From the IMG/VR virus record IMGVR_UViG_3300033141_002315, positions 1 through 22,495 of that record: a DNA stretch of 22,495 nt. One strand, written 5' to 3'. Made by a program: the position numbers and the translations under genes. The notes below the pieces were generated by a model. It saw only the letters and a list, made by a program, of their open reading frames with translations, ran no database searches and was not told the DNA's origin. Origin of the DNA: a virus. Numbering within the stretch: the stretch's first letter is position 1; each line of letters begins with the position of its first letter. This document shows positions 5,625-22,464 of the stretch, piece by piece.

Positions 5625-6302
5625 CTACGCACTTGTCACGTAGACAATGTGCTGCTCATTGTCGGCAGAGTAATCCCACACAATCTTGAAGCCAAGCAGG
5701 GCGTACCACGCCAAGCCCAGGTCTCGATTGTAGTCAGTGGAATTCTTCACGCGAATTTCCTCCGGAATAGCCACCGCCTCATAGACGTTGTCCATCCCGA
5801 AGAAGACGCCGGAGCCGTTGTCGCTCCCACTACCGATGGTATTGGAGAAGTACCCGGTTTCCTCCACAAACCGAGTCTGGTAAAACTTACCAATCTCGCC
5901 GTTGTGAATGTTACGGGCAAATTCACCAGTATACTTGCTCACATCAATCCAGCCACCAGTCGCGGTGTCGGCCTGAAGTCCAGCAAGCAAATTCACCGAG
6001 CCAACGCACACATATGTCCCACCACTATACTTGGGAATCTTCTTCCGCTTCATGAAGTTCACAATGGAACGAACATTCGCGGCAGTGAGATCCGCCGAAG
6101 CAGTAGCAGTGGCGGTACCATCAGTTGTGATCGCCACCGAAGCAGTGCCCACGTTGACGGCAATGAAGTCAGTCTTCACATACTCGTCACCGCAGCCATT
6201 CTCCAGGGCAGCCACCATGTCATCCCTGAGCTTGTGCTCAGTAACGGACGAGATCGAAATCTGCCCAAGAGCATCAATCTTCAGGGTGTACGGAACGCTA
6301 TT
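5625..6302 (-). CDS. Major capsid protein, exon 2 (N4gp56-type)
   Basis: This exon encodes the last 225 residues of the capsid protein and begins with AAT AGC GTT CCG (NSVP) right after the intron. It contains the family landmarks: a KLRDDMVAALENGCGDEYVK helix, a long spine-like helix (AANVRSIVNFMKRKKIPKY), YVCVGSVNLLAGLQAD, and ARNIHNGEIGKFYQTRFVEE. The last is the N-G-E-I-G-x-x-x-x-x-R-F-V-E signature of N4gp56-family capsid proteins. A GTG at 6305 could be mistaken for a start, but it consists of the last three intron bases and has no ribosome-binding site. Joined to exon 1 the reading frame is exact (GGT|AAT) and the protein is 318 residues, a normal size for the family. It forms the shell of the head. 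Confidence 0.85.
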   Translation of the reverse strand, partial: NSVPYTLKIDALGQISISSVTEHKLRDDMVAALENGCGDEYVKTDFIAVNVGTASVAITTDGTATATASADLTAANVRSIVNFMKRKKIPKYSGGTYVCVGSVNLLAGLQADTATGGWIDVSKYTGEFARNIHNGEIGKFYQTRFVEETGYFSNTIGSGSDNGSGVFFGMDNVYEAVAIPEEIRVKNSTDYNRDLGLAWYALLGFKIVWDYSADNEQHIVYVTSA

Positions 6303-6936
6303 CACTCAGCCCGCAGCTTTCACTGCGGAGTGGACTGTCATTTGACTCTTGGAAGCTAGCTTCCAACGGAGCCCGTGGTCTTCAGTCTCTGACACGCCTC
6401 GATGGTTGAGAGCACGCAATTTATCCAGAATTTGCAGTTCAGCTTCACTGTACTGCTGGCCTTTGGCGGCCTGCGAATTGCCTCGACTTTCCACAAAGTC
6501 CAGTACAAGCTGAGCCTGCGCCAACTTGCCGACCAGGTAAGGCTTCACGGCCTCCAGCACTTTCTTGCATTTGCTAAGACCGCTGACCGTAACCCAAAAG
6601 CAAGTCTTCTTGCGCTTAGCAGGAGACTGTACCTTAACATAGGGGTTCACGCCGAGCCGACGCATGATTGTCATAGTAGCGTCAACAATCGCCCGGTCCG
6701 TGTTGGTTACAATCACCTTGGGGCTCAGACCCATCATGCCGTTCAGGCGACGATTGCCCGATCTTTCTAAGGTGATCGTCCCTTCCCCATCAATCAATCC
6801 TGCCAAGTATGCCATCTCAACCTCTTGCATATGCGGGTTACCCATTGTTACATCCATCGAACTGTTCCATCAGTAGGGGCCGATGACTTTAGGGCTTTCC
6901 TGCAACTACCACGTAAAAGGGCAATCAATTCAGTTT
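6303..6936 (-). ncRNA. Group I self-splicing intron in the capsid gene
   Basis: Read on the minus strand, the 5' exon ends GGGGT and pairs with the guide GCCCT (U-G wobble at the splice site), forming P1. The three bases before the guide (ATT) pair with the first three of exon 2 (AAT), forming P10. The core follows: CGTGGT pairs with ACCACG (P3). The P4 segment is GCAGGAAAGCCCTAAAG (about 6882-6908) and the Q-like segment is ACAATGGGTAACCCGC. GACTG pairs with CAGTC (P7; R about 6368-6395, S about 6325-6341). P8 is the perfect palindrome TTGGAAGCTAGCTTCCAA (6349-6366) and P9 is CCGCAG/CTGCGG (6311-6328). The intron ends in G at 6303, as required. The endonuclease gene sits between Q and R, in the P6 region. 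Exact length under this reading is 634 nt. Confidence 0.88.
6306..6815 (-). CDS. LAGLIDADG homing endonuclease encoded in the intron
   Basis: The protein opens MAYLAGLIDGEGTITLERSG, with the LAGLIDGEG helix that forms the dimer interface and carries the catalytic acidic residue. Only one such motif is present, so it should act as a homodimer. Its role is to cut intron-free capsid genes and drive spread of the intron. I prefer the ATG at 6815 because AAGAGG lies five bases upstream; ATGs at 6857, 6845 and 6830 are in frame but fall in or next to the intron core. The last 30 or so residues (from VSETEDHGL) are encoded by the intron's R, P8, S and P9 segments, so that tail is dictated by RNA structure. 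Length is 169 residues from this start (183 from 6857). The enzyme looks intact. Confidence 0.85.
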   Translation of the reverse strand: MAYLAGLIDGEGTITLERSGNRRLNGMMGLSPKVIVTNTDRAIVDATMTIMRRLGVNPYVKVQSPAKRKKTCFWVTVSGLSKCKKVLEAVKPYLVGKLAQAQLVLDFVESRGNSQAAKGQQYSEAELQILDKLRALNHRGVSETEDHGLRWKLASKSQMTVHSAVKAAG

Positions 6937-7215
6937 ACCCCACTCATCAATAGTTCCCGTACCCTGACCAACCGTAAAGTTGGTCTCCGGCATGGTAGCC
7001 GTTTCAATCAACGTGGTACCCTGCGTAGCAAGGTTCCCGACTTTGTCAAAAAGCCAGGTGTCTCCACGATTTTTGCCAATGGCCTCTTTTACGTCCACAA
7101 AGCTGCGCAGTCTCCACTCCGGCTGCGCCACGTAGCGCAAGCGATCCGACAGATACGGAACCGCGCCGATGCCTGTGCCTCCAAGAGAGCCAACTGACCA
7201 TGTTTGTCCTGCCAT
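6937..7215 (-). CDS. Major capsid protein, exon 1 (N4gp56-type)
   Basis: This exon encodes residues 1-93, from MAGQTWSVGSLGGTGIG to GTGTIDEWG. The ATG at 7215 has a strong ribosome-binding site (AAAGGAGATG). Without splicing, translation would add only K-L-N and stop at 6925, giving a useless 96-residue fragment. With splicing, residues E-W-G join N-S-V-P-Y-T, matching the continuous E-x-G-x-x-x-P-Y/F-T region of N4gp56-type capsid proteins. The TTLIETATMPETNFTVGQ stretch corresponds to the family's extended segment before that point. It lies directly after the scaffold gene, the standard arrangement. Confidence 0.85.
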
Positions 7216-13448: not shown

Positions 13449-13524
13449 TGGAGCTGGTGGAAGGACTCGAACCCTCAACCCGTAGGTTACAAACCCACCG
13501 CTCTGCCAATTGAGCTACACCAGC
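13449..13524 (-). tRNA. tRNA-Thr (anticodon TGT), CCA encoded
   Basis: The minus strand folds as a complete cloverleaf. The acceptor stem is GCTGGTG/CACCAGC, the D arm is GTAGCTCAATTGGCAGAGC, the anticodon arm is GTGGG-TTTGTAA-CCTAC, and the T arm contains GGTTCGAGTCC. The loop T-T-TGT-A-A places TGT at 34-36, reading ACA (Thr). Discriminator T is followed by encoded CCA at 13451-13449. A TATAAT with TGG before it ends 14 bases upstream. Confidence 0.93.
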
Positions 13525-17708: not shown

Positions 17709-19718
17709 TTACTTCTTTCGTTCTCCTTGCTTTATTGCGGCCTTTGCCCGCATTTCCTCGATGTCGAGCTCACGCGAGCGAAGCTCAATGTCCATCATGG
17801 CCTTGAAGAGATTGATGCTATGCTCCTCGTCGGCCCGCTGCTGCTGCTTGGCAAGCAAAGCCTGTTGCTGCTGCATAGCGGCAAGTTGCTGCATCTTCTT
17901 GTTCTCGGCGTTGATGATGCCCGGCAGAGACTTGAGCATGTCGGGAGTGACTTTCTCGACTCCAAAGGCATGGAGCTTCGCAGTCGCTACCTCGGGAGTT
18001 TCGATCACGTCTTCAATGTCCGGAATTTCGGCTCGGAAGGCGGCCAGGATTTTCCGGAGCAGGACATCTTGACGGATGTAGGGTAGCCACTTGTCGCCGT
18101 TTTGCCCCAGAATGTTCAGGAATTGCACGAGGTGTTGCAAGACCTCGACGTTCTTGATCTGGTTGGAGATGCCAGTCACTTTCACGACGTACTGCCCATT
18201 GATGAGTTCTAAGAGTTGGCTCCTGGTCAAGCTTTGAATTGACGGAGCGTTGACGCCGAGAATTGCGGGGACGCGCGGGTCATTGCTCGTGTCCAGGTAT
18301 TGCATGATTAAGTCGATGGACAGCTCGACCATTGGCTTCAGAGCGTGGTTTTCGATGCTACTGGCGAGATTGCCGAAGAAGGTGTCTTGCTGGGCGACTT
18401 TCTTGTCAATTTCGGTTGCGGTCGTTACGCCCCGCCAACGAGGCATGGACTGCTGAACTTCGCTGACTAAAGCGCCTTCCTGGTGAGACCTGTCGAGTAA
18501 GCCGACCAATTGGACAGCACCATTGCTGATGTCCTCTGTTTGGATTGGCTGAATGGCCCGAACCCCGGAAATATCGGACATGCTGCGCATGAAGAATTTG
18601 CCGGGAGCAATGCCGGTCCGAAGGTCCTCTTCATTTTCGAACAGATCGGGGTAGACCTCGAAGATCGGCATTAAGCGGAAAAGAAGGGCGTCCATGCTCA
18701 GGTTGGCGAGTTTGTTGAGGGCCTTGTCGATTTCTCGGACCATTTCGACGAGGCCGACGCCCTCAGTGCGGAAGGGAACTTGGAGAGGACTGAAGGCCAC
18801 ATAAGGGTAACGTTTCGACCACAGTTTGTAGGGTTTGTAGCTTAGCAAGAGGGTCTTGTCGGCGATTATTACGTGGCCGTGCTTCTCAACAACTTCGTTG
18901 TTACGCACGATCGGACCGAAGTACTCGATTAGTTCGACTTCTTCTTGTGATGCTTGGTCAGACTGATACTCGTCGAAACGCGTCATGGTCTTTTGCTGCT
19001 CGTCTTTTACCGTGCTGGGACTGACGCGCTTGATTTCTTCCAGAGTAGCTACGTTGAAGATGCCTTGCTTGGCTTTTTCAATGAGCTCCCACTTCGGCAT
19101 ACGGATTACTTCGAGAGTGCCCTTCCAGTTGTTGAGCTTGCTGCCGGGGAGCCAGTAGAAGTTGTAGGGATCAACGGCCTTGACCATGAGGCGGCCTTCT
19201 TTGGCGGTGCGGACCACAAGTTGGCCGCCGGACTCGGTCGCCAGTTCAGGCTTGTCGGCCAGTTCCCACCAAAGCTTCCAGACCCCAAGGCCCATAATGA
19301 AGCCGCTTTCAAGGCCCGTGCTGAACTCGTCCTTGTAGCCAGCGTTTTCCAGGAAGACTTGGACGAGCTGGGCGAGTTGGCCCGCCCTGACGCCGAGCGT
19401 CAAATTGTCGGGGTCAACCGGCTCGATGCTCCAAGGGTCTTTCGAGATGCCTAGGAAGCGTTCGATGGTTGAGGTCGCTTGCTTCACACTGTTGAAGCTT
19501 TTTGGGAGGACAAGCTTGGAGTTCCATTCCTCCTTTTCGCTGAAGTCCTGTTTACCTCGGTAAAGCTCCCAGCACTCAGTCCAAATGTCTACTTTGTTGC
19601 GTCGGGCGTTGCGTATTTTTTGGAACTTGTCTATGATGTTCGAGACGATCTCTTTTTTTGCCCCGTTGCGCTCCGCCTCAGCATCTATCATTGAAATAGG
19701 GTTTGTTTGTCCAGCCAC
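17709..19718 (-). CDS. Portal protein
   Basis: The protein has 669 residues from a GTG at 19718 (MAGQTNPISMIDAEAERNGA) with AGGAAGGAAG upstream. The N-terminal part (WTECWELYRGKQDF, then NSKLVLPKSFNSVKQATSTI) is the clip/wing opening of phage portals, with the basic-aromatic helix and the 'lock' region. The middle contains VEKHGHVIIADKTLL and KRYPYVAFSPLQVPFRTEGV with G-x-V-E-M-V-R-E-I-D, corresponding to the stem and crown of large podovirus-type portals. The last 65 residues are a Gln/Ala/Lys-rich coiled coil (MQQLAAMQQQQALLAKQQQR), as in barrel-type portals. The gene directly follows the terminase nuclease gene. The protein forms the ring through which DNA enters the head. Confidence 0.82.
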   Translation of the reverse strand: MAGQTNPISMIDAEAERNGAKKEIVSNIIDKFQKIRNARRNKVDIWTECWELYRGKQDFSEKEEWNSKLVLPKSFNSVKQATSTIERFLGISKDPWSIEPVDPDNLTLGVRAGQLAQLVQVFLENAGYKDEFSTGLESGFIMGLGVWKLWWELADKPELATESGGQLVVRTAKEGRLMVKAVDPYNFYWLPGSKLNNWKGTLEVIRMPKWELIEKAKQGIFNVATLEEIKRVSPSTVKDEQQKTMTRFDEYQSDQASQEEVELIEYFGPIVRNNEVVEKHGHVIIADKTLLLSYKPYKLWSKRYPYVAFSPLQVPFRTEGVGLVEMVREIDKALNKLANLSMDALLFRLMPIFEVYPDLFENEEDLRTGIAPGKFFMRSMSDISGVRAIQPIQTEDISNGAVQLVGLLDRSHQEGALVSEVQQSMPRWRGVTTATEIDKKVAQQDTFFGNLASSIENHALKPMVELSIDLIMQYLDTSNDPRVPAILGVNAPSIQSLTRSQLLELINGQYVVKVTGISNQIKNVEVLQHLVQFLNILGQNGDKWLPYIRQDVLLRKILAAFRAEIPDIEDVIETPEVATAKLHAFGVEKVTPDMLKSLPGIINAENKKMQQLAAMQQQQALLAKQQQRADEEHSINLFKAMMDIELRSRELDIEEMRAKAAIKQGERKK

Positions 19719-19767: not shown

Positions 19768-20613
19768 TTAGGTGTACAATCTCCAAAATTCTCGCACGCG
19801 TCTGCGGTGAATTTTGGGGGTCTTTGGACTGCTGTTCATGTAGTACTTGCAGTCGTCCATGGCATGGTTGTTGTGGTCGGCAAGAGTCTCCCTCCAGTTC
19901 TTGCTTGCTTTCTGCTTGTCGCTCATGGAGGCATACACAGCCCCCTCAAATTCTTGGATCATGTTTTTGCAACAGTCGAAGATTTTGAAGGTGATGTGGT
20001 TCGGGTCCGACCAGTGCTCCTTCATTTTTGCAAGCCAAGCCTGCTCGTTGTTGTTGCCCCGAATGAGCTTAGTAAGTCCTTTTTCCATGAACAGTTCATA
20101 CATGCTGGAAGGCAAGCCCCGAGAATTGCGGGTGGTGCGCCCGAAGATGGTTGGGTCAGCCGCTATGTACTTCACACTGGCCCAGTAAGGAAAGCTCTTC
20201 ACCTTGTACACAAACTCGTCGATGTTTACGCAAGGCTCGTAAAGTTCCCACACACAGTAGGTTATGCCTTCGTGAATGGTGTAGAAGTGGACACTGCTGG
20301 GGTTGCGCGAGCCATAGTCCAAGCCTCCCCAGTAGGGCATGTCCGGGCCGAACTCCGGATAGGGCCGCCTAACCACTATGTGGCCCTTGTGCTCCCGAAT
20401 TTCGGGAAATGCGAGGTCCCCACTGAGAGCACTGAAGTCGATTTCGTATTCCATGGCCCAGTCCGAGGGGCGCATCCCAGCCTGAGCTTCACGCTTCCAC
20501 ACTTCGGAGCGCTTTCTCGGGTCAGCAGTGTAGTGAAGGCGAACCACACAGAAGCCGTTGTTGTCATTGCGCTTTATTTGAAGGCCAGTGTCTTCATACA
20601 AGATTTTCGGCAT
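19768..20613 (-). CDS. terL: Terminase large subunit, nuclease half (separate gene)
   Basis: I place the start at the ATG at 20613 (MPKILYEDTGLQIKRNDNNG), one base after the previous stop; a TTG at 20637 is an alternative. The 281-residue protein first has the linker seen after terminase ATPase domains (GFCVVRLHYTADP, then W-x-x-E-Y-E-I-D-F). It then has an RNase H-like nuclease: GGLDYGSRNPSSVHFYTI supplies the first catalytic Asp (about 99), YIAADPTIFGR the second (about 153), and HNNHAMDDCKYYM the third (about 253/254). All three acidic positions are present, so it should be active. It has no ATPase domain: that is encoded by the gene ending at 21490. The halves must associate to package DNA. 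Confidence 0.82.
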   Translation of the reverse strand: MPKILYEDTGLQIKRNDNNGFCVVRLHYTADPRKRSEVWKREAQAGMRPSDWAMEYEIDFSALSGDLAFPEIREHKGHIVVRRPYPEFGPDMPYWGGLDYGSRNPSSVHFYTIHEGITYCVWELYEPCVNIDEFVYKVKSFPYWASVKYIAADPTIFGRTTRNSRGLPSSMYELFMEKGLTKLIRGNNNEQAWLAKMKEHWSDPNHITFKIFDCCKNMIQEFEGAVYASMSDKQKASKNWRETLADHNNHAMDDCKYYMNSSPKTPKIHRRRVREFWRLYT

Positions 20614-20614
20614 A

Positions 20615-21019
20615 CTAGTATTTGTATCTTTTTCCAAACATTAAAGTGTCAATGGCGTTCGTTACGGACTCCACGCCGTTTTCCAAAGCAACACCCTCAT
20701 GGACGGAGAGACCAACCCCTGGCTTTCCTGTCACTTTTGCGAATAGAATATGGGCAATCTCGTGGATGATAGTGGTCCTGTAGTCTTCCATTCTGTCATC
20801 CGCTAGAGGGTACAGTTTGGAGGGACGTACTACCCTGATTTGGGCCTCCCGAAATTCCAAGTTCCATCTGCACTCCCCAAGGTCGTTGTCGGGTAGCTTT
20901 GAGACTATGGAGAAGGTTACTTCCCAGTCGTTCAGTTTCAGCAGGTCCAGTATATCGTCGATGAACCTCAACGAGTCTTTTTTAAGTTTTGCCAGGGAGA
21001 TCGTCGTTTTGCTCTTCAT
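20615..21019 (-). CDS. Small HEIAH zinc metallopeptidase-like protein
   Basis: This 134-residue protein contains IIHEIAHILFAKV, a complete H-E-x-x-H zinc site at residues 86-90, with Glu113 or Glu117 (VALENGVESV) as the likely third ligand, as in gluzincin-type peptidases. The N-terminal 60 residues are a helix followed by strands (DWEVTFSIVSKLP, then WNLEFREAQIRVV) that pack in front of the site. There is no signal peptide, so it acts in the cell. It overlaps the upstream nucleotidyltransferase gene by 38 bases and touches the downstream terminase nuclease gene. Its substrate is unknown; a head or packaging protein, or a host factor, are options. Confidence 0.65.
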   Translation of the reverse strand: MKSKTTISLAKLKKDSLRFIDDILDLLKLNDWEVTFSIVSKLPDNDLGECRWNLEFREAQIRVVRPSKLYPLADDRMEDYRTTIIHEIAHILFAKVTGKPGVGLSVHEGVALENGVESVTNAIDTLMFGKRYKY

Positions 21020-21497
21020 TTTTTATTTTCTCGATTAGCTTGGTTACGATGTCGGTGGTGTGTATTCCACTGTCACGCACGTAGATTGTCGGTATGCCAA
21101 AGTCCGGATCAATGGCCCCGACGATTGTCACAAACTCGGAGTCATCGTCTACCTCAAAGACGGCGTCGGCTCCACAGTAGTACAAAGATGTTGCACGTTG
21201 AGGCCAGCTCATGATCGGGCGGAGCTTCCCCTTGGTTCGCCTCAGCTTTGCGTCACTGTCCAAGAGGGCCACGAGCGTGGCGCACCTGTGTCGGGCCTCT
21301 CCAATGAGTCGAAGGTGGCCGCTTGTGAGAATGTCGAACCCTCCGTTAATCATACCCAATGGCCTCGGAAGCAGTTTCACTTTGTTGAGACTGAGGGCGG
21401 TCGTGTTCTGAAGGGCGGACAACACGTCTTCATGTTGCTTGCAAGTAAACCAAGTCTTGGGCACGCGCCTCTCAAAGAACTTTGTGTCTTTAGTCAT
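20982..21497 (-). CDS. Cytidylyltransferase-like nucleotidyltransferase
   Basis: This 171-residue protein carries LGMINGGFDILTSGHLRLIG at about 48-65. That is the N/G-x-F-D-x-x-x-x-G-H motif of the nucleotidyltransferase superfamily that includes the ADP-heptose and glycerol-3-phosphate enzymes; the first position of (H/T)-x-G-H is Thr58 and the last His61. A following VALLDSDAKLRRTKGKLRPI and MSWPQRATSL fit the second half of the nucleotide site, and DAVFEVDDDSEFVTIVGAID the end of the fold. The first 45 residues are a family-specific extension (KTWFTCKQHEDVLSALQN). It should transfer a nucleotide to a small phosphorylated molecule; the substrate is not deducible. It overlaps the terminase ATPase gene by eight bases (ATGACTAA), so the two are translationally coupled. 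Confidence 0.7.
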   Translation of the reverse strand: MTKDTKFFERRVPKTWFTCKQHEDVLSALQNTTALSLNKVKLLPRPLGMINGGFDILTSGHLRLIGEARHRCATLVALLDSDAKLRRTKGKLRPIMSWPQRATSLYYCGADAVFEVDDDSEFVTIVGAIDPDFGIPTIYVRDSGIHTTDIVTKLIEKIKNEEQNDDLPGKT

Positions 21498-22464
21498 AGT
21501 TGCTCAACATATCCATGCACGCCGCCTCGAACCACCCAGGATTGGCGGAACTGGTGGCCGTGAAGCGGCCTCCATTCTGGATGGATGGCTTGGCGGCGGC
21601 AAAGCTAGCGGCTGCCTGGGGCAAAAAGGCAGCCTCGTCTTGGTAAAGACCTCTAGGGTGAAACTGGCGAATCTGGTCCGGGTCCTGGGGGAAGCCCATC
21701 ATTATAGACTCTCCCCCCTTCACAATGAATTCTCCGCCTTTCATGCTGCCGACAGACAGCTTAGCCGGGCTTATGTCCCTGAGAATCTTCGGTTGGTTCT
21801 TGTATATGTGGTGAGCTCGGCTGACGAGGTCATAGGCTTTCCGCGCGTTCAGACTTTGGACGATGTTCTGTGCTCCTTCATTGTAGATTGTGTCCCAGGT
21901 ATAGAAGGCAATAACCATCCAAGTAGCGACCATGTCCCGACTCTTCATAATGAAGAGGTAGCGTTCTGTGAGCCATCTCTCGGCTATGGGCTTGATGTAA
22001 GGGAGGTGGTAGGGAAACGGGCGGATACTTGGCAGTTCCTCGAAGTACGAGAGGACGGCGCTATGGCTTGGAGCTCTAAGACTGTGGGCAAGTTCCAGGT
22101 GGACCGCCAGTTTGTCGAAAGTCAGAGTGCGGTCCTTGTCCGTTCCTTTGCAAAGAGTGCAGCGAAACGCCTGGTGAGGGTCGTAAGTGAAGACGTAGGG
22201 AAGACCCTCTGGCCACTTGTCCGTCTTCACGTGCTGAGTGTGGTCCAACCAGTAAAACAAAGAGTCGTGGCACTTGTCCCACTCAACCTGTGCCATTGCT
22301 TTGGCAGCTTTCTTTTTGAGTTTGGTTGGGCACTTTTCCAGCCACTCCAAGGTTTCGTTGTTGAGACCAAACCACTCCGGGTATTTTGGTACCTTGTCAC
22401 GAACGAAAATATTGTCAGAAATTGCGAGTACTCTTCGTTGCTCGTCTTGAGTCGTTTGGATCAT
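21490..22464 (-). CDS. terL: Terminase large subunit, ATPase half (separate gene)
   Basis: This 324-residue protein has FIMKSRDMVATW at about 171-182, the degenerate Walker A (K-S-R-x-M) used by many phage terminases. GLYQDEAAF at about 272-280 is Walker B with catalytic Asp276-Glu277, and FTATSSANPGWF at about 301-312 is the coupling motif. The protein stops 12 residues later (MDMLSNYD), where the nuclease domain should follow. Before the ATPase, CTLC at 102-105 and VHLELAH at 121-127 form a C-x2-C-x16-H-x4-H zinc-finger-like insert. It drives DNA into the head using ATP. An in-frame stop lies upstream of the ATG, so the N-terminus is complete. Confidence 0.85.
   Translation of the reverse strand: MIQTTQDEQRRVLAISDNIFVRDKVPKYPEWFGLNNETLEWLEKCPTKLKKKAAKAMAQVEWDKCHDSLFYWLDHTQHVKTDKWPEGLPYVFTYDPHQAFRCTLCKGTDKDRTLTFDKLAVHLELAHSLRAPSHSAVLSYFEELPSIRPFPYHLPYIKPIAERWLTERYLFIMKSRDMVATWMVIAFYTWDTIYNEGAQNIVQSLNARKAYDLVSRAHHIYKNQPKILRDISPAKLSVGSMKGGEFIVKGGESIMMGFPQDPDQIRQFHPRGLYQDEAAFLPQAAASFAAAKPSIQNGGRFTATSSANPGWFEAACMDMLSNYD

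Follow-up and report, generated by a model that had tools for sequence, protein, structure and literature searches.

A viral terminase large subunit encoded as two genes, with a cargo site between the ATPase core and the lid

Can the large terminase subunit (TerL) of a virus be encoded by two genes with unrelated genes between them and, if so, where is the protein divided and what divided it? The question is raised by a 22-kb virus fragment (IMG/VR record IMGVR_UViG_3300033141_002315, positions 1 to 22,495), the whole of which, 22,495 nucleotides, is referred to here as the window. Four ORFs were confirmed on its minus strand, in the order ATPase half (TerL-A; 21490–22464, 324 aa), nucleotidyltransferase (20982–21497, 171 aa), HEIAH protein (20615–21019, 134 aa), and nuclease half (TerL-B; 19768–20613, 281 aa from ATG), with neighbors overlapping or abutting, and the arrangement described by a first-pass annotation was recovered in full, coordinates included. 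The ATG of the nucleotidyltransferase overlaps the TerL-A stop codon by 8 nt. For TerL-B, a TTG at position 20637 is also open (19768–20637, 289 aa), but the ATG directly behind the stop codon of the HEIAH gene (TAG-T-ATG) is the more likely start. The portal protein gene (17709–19718, minus strand; PHROG head–tail adaptor/portal matches, E 2e-32 and 4e-14) lies directly downstream of TerL-B, and is its neighbor also in relatives, a conserved context outside the split itself. A tRNA-Thr (TGT) gene (13449–13524, minus strand) is located amid the late structural genes.

TerL-A has the features of a terminase ASCE ATPase core, i.e., P-loop, catalytic glutamate and coupling motif. It matches a PHROG terminase family (E 1e-6) and the profile of T4 gp17 (E 3e-10), and the best Foldseek matches to its AF2 single-chain model (pLDDT 89.9) are the TerL proteins T4 gp17, P74-26, HK97, and D6E. 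The P-loop is of the K-first type and lacks GK[ST]; the Walker A-like motif KSRDM (Lys174 and Arg176, 21937–21945) has both the lysine and the arginine in 30/30 aligned sequences, and the Walker B/catalytic pair Asp276–Glu277 (21634–21639) is present in 32/32. The coupling motif SSAN is encoded at 21541–21552, and the protein ends 16 residues after Asn308, in agreement with the earlier observation that the ATPase half stops shortly after this motif. The N-terminal part of TerL-A additionally carries a C2H2 zinc-finger-like motif (22084–22161, minus strand) formed by Cys102, Cys105, His122, and His127. Among the aligned sequences having the position, each cysteine is found in 28/28 and each histidine in 29/29, and the motif is kept in nearly all gapped relatives.

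TerL-B aligns by profile to residues 197–416 of the D6E TerL chain (E 2e-9), and its AF2 single-chain model (pLDDT 89.9) has D6E TerL as the best Foldseek match (E 1e-12), followed by the nuclease domains of P22, SPP1, and G20c. The protein contains an RNase H/RuvC-type nuclease with an acidic active site composed of Asp99 (20317–20319), Asp153 (20155–20157), and Asp253 (19855–19857), which are present in 36/36, 35/35, and 36/36 aligned sequences, respectively. The catalytic residues of both halves are thus essentially invariant in the alignment; that they are kept in both halves had been noted from the window alone.

The position of the break differs from what had been assumed. In D6E TerL, the ASCE core is followed by a lid subdomain, a 12-residue linker (residues 230–241) and the nuclease, and the lid includes Tyr213, Met216, and Arg224 (PMC5727402). 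The nuclease-half profile aligns from position 25 onward to D6E chain position 197. The chain numbering appears to be offset by three relative to the published one, such that chain residues Tyr216, Met219, and Arg227 would be Tyr213, Met216, and Arg224 of the paper, and positions 25–60 of the TerL-B profile therefore correspond to D6E lid residues 194–229. In the window, this lid segment (HYTADP...EYEID, about residues 25–60) is encoded at 20434–20541 on the minus strand. The lid is present, but carried on the nuclease polypeptide; it follows that TerL is divided within its ATPase domain, where the ATP-hydrolyzing core gives way to the lid, and not at the border of the ATPase and nuclease domains, to which the first-pass annotation had assigned the break. 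In known TerL proteins, coupling between the P-loop arginine and the lid occurs in cis (PMC5727402; PMC7617512). In the TerL of the window, the corresponding Arg176 (30/30) and the lid sit on different chains, and ATPase and nuclease are found not as a single polypeptide but as two genes with two others between.

That this TerL is decaying, or that its split is an assembly artefact while another TerL supplies packaging, is most improbable. Such an interpretation would agree with the window being a fragment of 22 kb, and with the small in-frame and frameshift differences that one related contig (L003) has in these genes. Against it, near-identical copies of the locus occur in two further contigs, and the same split architecture is seen in dozens of independent, divergent contigs. 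One of the near-identical relatives, G001, spans 64,275 bp with 114-bp identical ends, and is for this reason probably a complete genome. A profile search of all six frames and a search for Walker motifs in this terminally repeated sequence detected neither a second TerL nor an intact third terminase gene; only the two split genes match. Furthermore, both halves show very low dN between the window and G001 (dS 0.26 and dN 0.001 for the ATPase half, dS 0.22 and dN 0.004 for the nuclease half), and strong purifying selection on both can therefore be concluded from this one genome pair. The two halves co-diverge, their distances being correlated with r 0.775 (0/5000 permutations), as is expected for any neighboring genes and without being proof of contact. 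A division of TerL into two genes, each recognizable as TerL by profile and fold, is accordingly borne out by a layout that recurs. In the short contig L003 (1396–2538), the zincin-like and nuclease genes are joined in a single open frame, and a frameshift affects the end of the nuclease, either as a real variant or by assembly error.

Scans of IMG/VR and of bacterial and archaeal contigs returned 171 loci with both halves, of which 64 are non-redundant; a first scan of genome contigs with the nuclease half as query gave no match. Six of the 64 loci are fused (ORFs of 537–579 aa, among them L142 with 556 aa) and the others are split, either as abutting or overlapping gene pairs (17 loci) or with a gap of 0.3–4.9 kb (41 loci). 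All three states are directly observed, and the site of the break is invariant in the alignment: it follows immediately on the ATPase coupling motif and precedes the HY[TS]ADP segment. For 15 of the 17 abutting loci, a start codon of the nuclease gene is found within −13 to +6 nt of the ATPase stop codon, and the overlaps take different forms (ATGA, TGATG, TAGATG, and others). These several overlap forms and start codons indicate real bicistronic pairs in several lineages. A frameshift, a sequencing error or one slippery site is an unlikely origin of the abutting forms, given that start codons and overlap types vary between lineages. Of 34 loci in the gapped clade, 28 have a nuclease start codon that touches or overlaps the stop codon in front of it.

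When both halves were used to build a tree, 33 gapped loci grouped with one abutting locus in a clade of 100/100 support, and the other abutting groups and the fused forms fall outside it. The gapped and abutting states are clustered, with 6 changes on the tree versus a mean of 20.5 for shuffled labels. The fused forms were chosen as the root of this tree, and a weakly supported node (85/21) unites one fused group with an abutting one; how many fission or fusion events took place, and in which direction, is therefore not fixed by it. A succession from fused to bicistronic to gapped is likely, though not proven. Long branches affected another tree, built from the nuclease half and using fused isolates for the outgroup, and this tree was kept out of the conclusions. 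Among the relatives, no fused or intact TerL was found in the closest clade. One candidate for a fused close relative (L004) has a nuclease ORF that is open at the contig end, and is compatible with either a fused or an abutting form. A distant split lineage (L071 and L072; IMGVR 3300050821_004166 and 3300037852_000077) holds an HNH/AP2-type endonuclease in the gap, and has an ATPase half close to the split clade and a nuclease half slightly closer to fused TerL proteins.

The first of the two genes in the gap of the window encodes a cytidylyltransferase-like nucleotidyltransferase that resembles the C-terminal part of HldE (PF01467, E 6e-7, above the cut-off; PHROG HldE-type family, E 8e-15). 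The second encodes a zincin-like HExxH protein that is possibly SprT-like, with a match to PF10263 (E 0.007) below the cut-off. The earlier description of the pair as a nucleotidyltransferase and a peptidase therefore stands for the former, but for the latter there is the HExxH motif and the sub-threshold SprT-like match, and the peptidase assignment is not upheld. The main clade has 36 non-redundant gapped loci, of which 29 have an HldE-like nucleotidyltransferase right behind TerL-A and 33 have at least one methyltransferase, usually just before the nuclease gene. The methyltransferases belong to three unrelated families (FkbM, 13; Methyltransf_11-type, 15; TylF-type, 7). A zincin-like gene is present in 6/36 of these gaps, and the zincin of the window has relatives in five other gaps; in the window's own lineage, the zincin is present and a methyltransferase is absent from the gap. 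The nucleotidyltransferase of the window lacks 45 bp (15 residues in the VLGVEYKGHPSRFPG region, with the junction at 21098/21099) that are kept in G001 and in relatives, and in several relatives the HxGH motif of this enzyme is degenerate; because of these features, some of the nucleotidyltransferase copies may be inactive.

On the other side of the ATPase gene, a PfkB-family (HldE kinase-like) gene is present upstream in 23/24 loci and a cupin gene in 17/24. In G001 the PfkB-family kinase and cupin genes lie just upstream of the ATPase gene (51548–52990, outside the window). With kinase and cupin upstream, and nucleotidyltransferase and methyltransferase downstream, these genes thus bracket the ATPase gene, the first three of them as a conserved sugar cassette. 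They could plausibly modify a sugar on the host surface or on the virion. The gap is a cargo site, the insert content of which changes freely between relatives. Since cargo-free bicistronic relatives exist, the split of TerL is not due to the two enzyme genes, and the claim that they had caused it was given up.

A different possibility is that TerL was broken by a mobile insert, whether homing endonuclease, intron or intein, with the full-length protein restored by RNA or protein splicing. In its favor, the major capsid protein gene of the window is also in pieces (5625–7215, minus strand), with an N-terminal part at about 6925–7215, a C-terminal part at 5625–6305, and a LAGLIDADG/HNH-type endonuclease ORF between them at 6306–6857. 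In relatives this gene is intact in 11/14, and the other three, one of which is the window's own lineage, are interrupted at three different positions; G003 has a probable group I intron in its capsid gene (Rfam, 44 bits, E 1e-8), and in G005 the interruption is at another position than in the window. HNH-like ORFs are moreover found in the TerL gaps of L032, L050, L067, and L072, three such ORFs occur among the 36 gaps of the main clade, and a mobile element is thus a possible participant in some of the other lineages. The capsid gene interruptions have the look of recent mobile insertions, and the TerL split is unlike that. A search of the TerL gap against Rfam gave no intron; with the limit relaxed to E≤1, a single chance snoRNA match was the sole result. 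The gap content is multi-gene, overlapping and same-strand, and the abutting cargo-free forms offer nothing to splice. Each half has its own start and stop codons, with variable tails, and no intein-sized extra sequence was found at the TerL junction; as the ATPase half ends 16 residues past the coupling motif, there is no room for intein sequence, including that of a split intein. The earlier reading that the edges show no sign of an intron or intein is in line with these results, and a split intein or intron at the break was rejected. A homing endonuclease was also rejected as the present cause of the split in the window, where the gap contains no endonuclease gene. A gene broken into pieces by a homing endonuclease would be expected to have intact counterparts in close relatives; the clade has no intact TerL, and 17 loci are split without any insert. 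Taken as a whole, the mobile-element origin is very improbable.

Our strongly favored explanation is that a bipartite TerL arose by gene fission between core and lid, that the junction then became a cargo site, and that the two chains reassemble non-covalently. An ancestral fused TerL would have come apart between the ASCE core and the lid, giving two genes with coupled translation, and other genes, for sugar-nucleotide and methyl transfer, lysis, and a zincin, would afterwards have gathered at the junction within the same late operon. TerL-A (zinc finger and ASCE core) and TerL-B (lid and nuclease) would associate as one portal motor, in which the P-loop arginine of one chain may drive the lid carried by its partner, with cutting by the nuclease when packaging ends. 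Non-covalent reassembly has been demonstrated in T4-like phages for nrdA and DNA polymerase that are each encoded in pieces (PMC2988022), and is the most likely outcome here as well, and a working two-part motor would fit the evidence for selection. The direction from fused to split, the formation of a complex, its 1:1 stoichiometry and the packaging function are what we infer from these observations; the structure models cover single chains, TerL-A and TerL-B each alone.

Two further arrangements of the same proteins deserve mention. TerL-B could be an exchangeable lever and nuclease, with a TerL-A ring on the portal that swaps TerL-B during packaging, such that the lever stroke and DNA cutting would both be switched by taking up or letting go of this subunit, a scheme that we regard as unlikely; TerL-A and TerL-B would then, with equally little expectation, need to be neither 1:1 nor permanently joined. 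Alternatively, the halves could be separate enzymes, where TerL-A translocates DNA in a phi29-like manner, by itself or aided by further proteins of the host or the phage, and TerL-B joins only to cut. Consistent with this, each half folds confidently on its own (pLDDT 89.9 each), and the affinities of L072, with the ATPase half nearest the split clade and the nuclease half slightly nearer to fused TerL proteins, look as if the halves could evolve apart. It is opposed by the lack of a lid in TerL-A and its location in TerL-B, by the conservation of the P-loop arginine and the whole lid segment, and by the co-divergence of the halves, and such independence is quite unlikely; cutting by TerL-B at both initiation and termination, as it would entail, is doubtful to the same degree.

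The TerL of the window resembles canonical TerL proteins (T4 gp17, D6E, P74-26/G20c, Sf6, and HK97) with respect to the ASCE core with P-loop Arg/Lys, DE pair and coupling motif, the lid, the RuvC-like nuclease with three acidic residues, and the adjoining portal gene. The differences are that the core and the lid with nuclease are two polypeptides, that an N-terminal C2H2 motif is added, and that unrelated genes lie between. Herpesvirus terminase genes (UL15/UL89) are likewise in two pieces with other genes in the gap, but there mRNA splicing connects the exons, and a single protein results. T4-like phages provide examples of one enzyme encoded by two adjacent genes, i.e., the split nrdA of Aeh1, DNA polymerase 43A/43B and T4 topoisomerase gene 60, and the products of such gene pairs reassemble into active enzyme (PMC2988022). 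Those cases concern single phages or small groups, and are tied to homing endonucleases or an untranslated spacer (PMC2988022), whereas the present split is lineage-wide, exists without an insert, and concerns the packaging motor. The TerL coding sequence is interrupted also in cyanophage Mic1 (PMC7156551) and Campylobacter phage IBB_35 (PMC3322345), by inteins or an intron; splicing should there yield an uninterrupted protein, in contrast to the halves described here, with their own start and stop codons and neither intron nor intein. In MEP401-like marine phages, a core enzyme is similarly encoded by two ORFs with a gene between across a phage group (PMC10580990), but the enzyme is another one, a DNA polymerase, and the spacer is a single small ORF.

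No match to the ATPase half of the window was obtained among isolate phages, and isolate TerL proteins that weakly match the relatives are annotated as one gene in the records examined. Open-licence papers described TerL introns and inteins, and a bipartite TerL was not found in them; neither an isolate nor a paper with a two-gene TerL was thus found. Four related loci (L095, L096, L097, and L098) are within metagenome-assembled genomes labeled Bryobacteraceae, Thaumarchaeota, Omnitrophota, and Acidobacteria, and some of these contigs are probably misbinned phage; two of the related contigs fall in bins of Acidobacteriota, which is our best guess for a host of the related phages.

The lineage with a two-gene TerL is large and uncultured, and annotation pipelines made to look for a single full-length TerL will overlook or misname such phages. 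The usual view of TerL is that of a single-chain motor, and there is debate on how force reaches the DNA from the P-loop arginine, lid and nuclease. A natural split between the core and the lid with nuclease makes this force coupling testable by mixing, mutating or omitting one chain. The relatives show how cargo genes settle inside a packaging operon, and their fused, bicistronic and gapped forms provide a series for studying the dismantling of a core viral machine.
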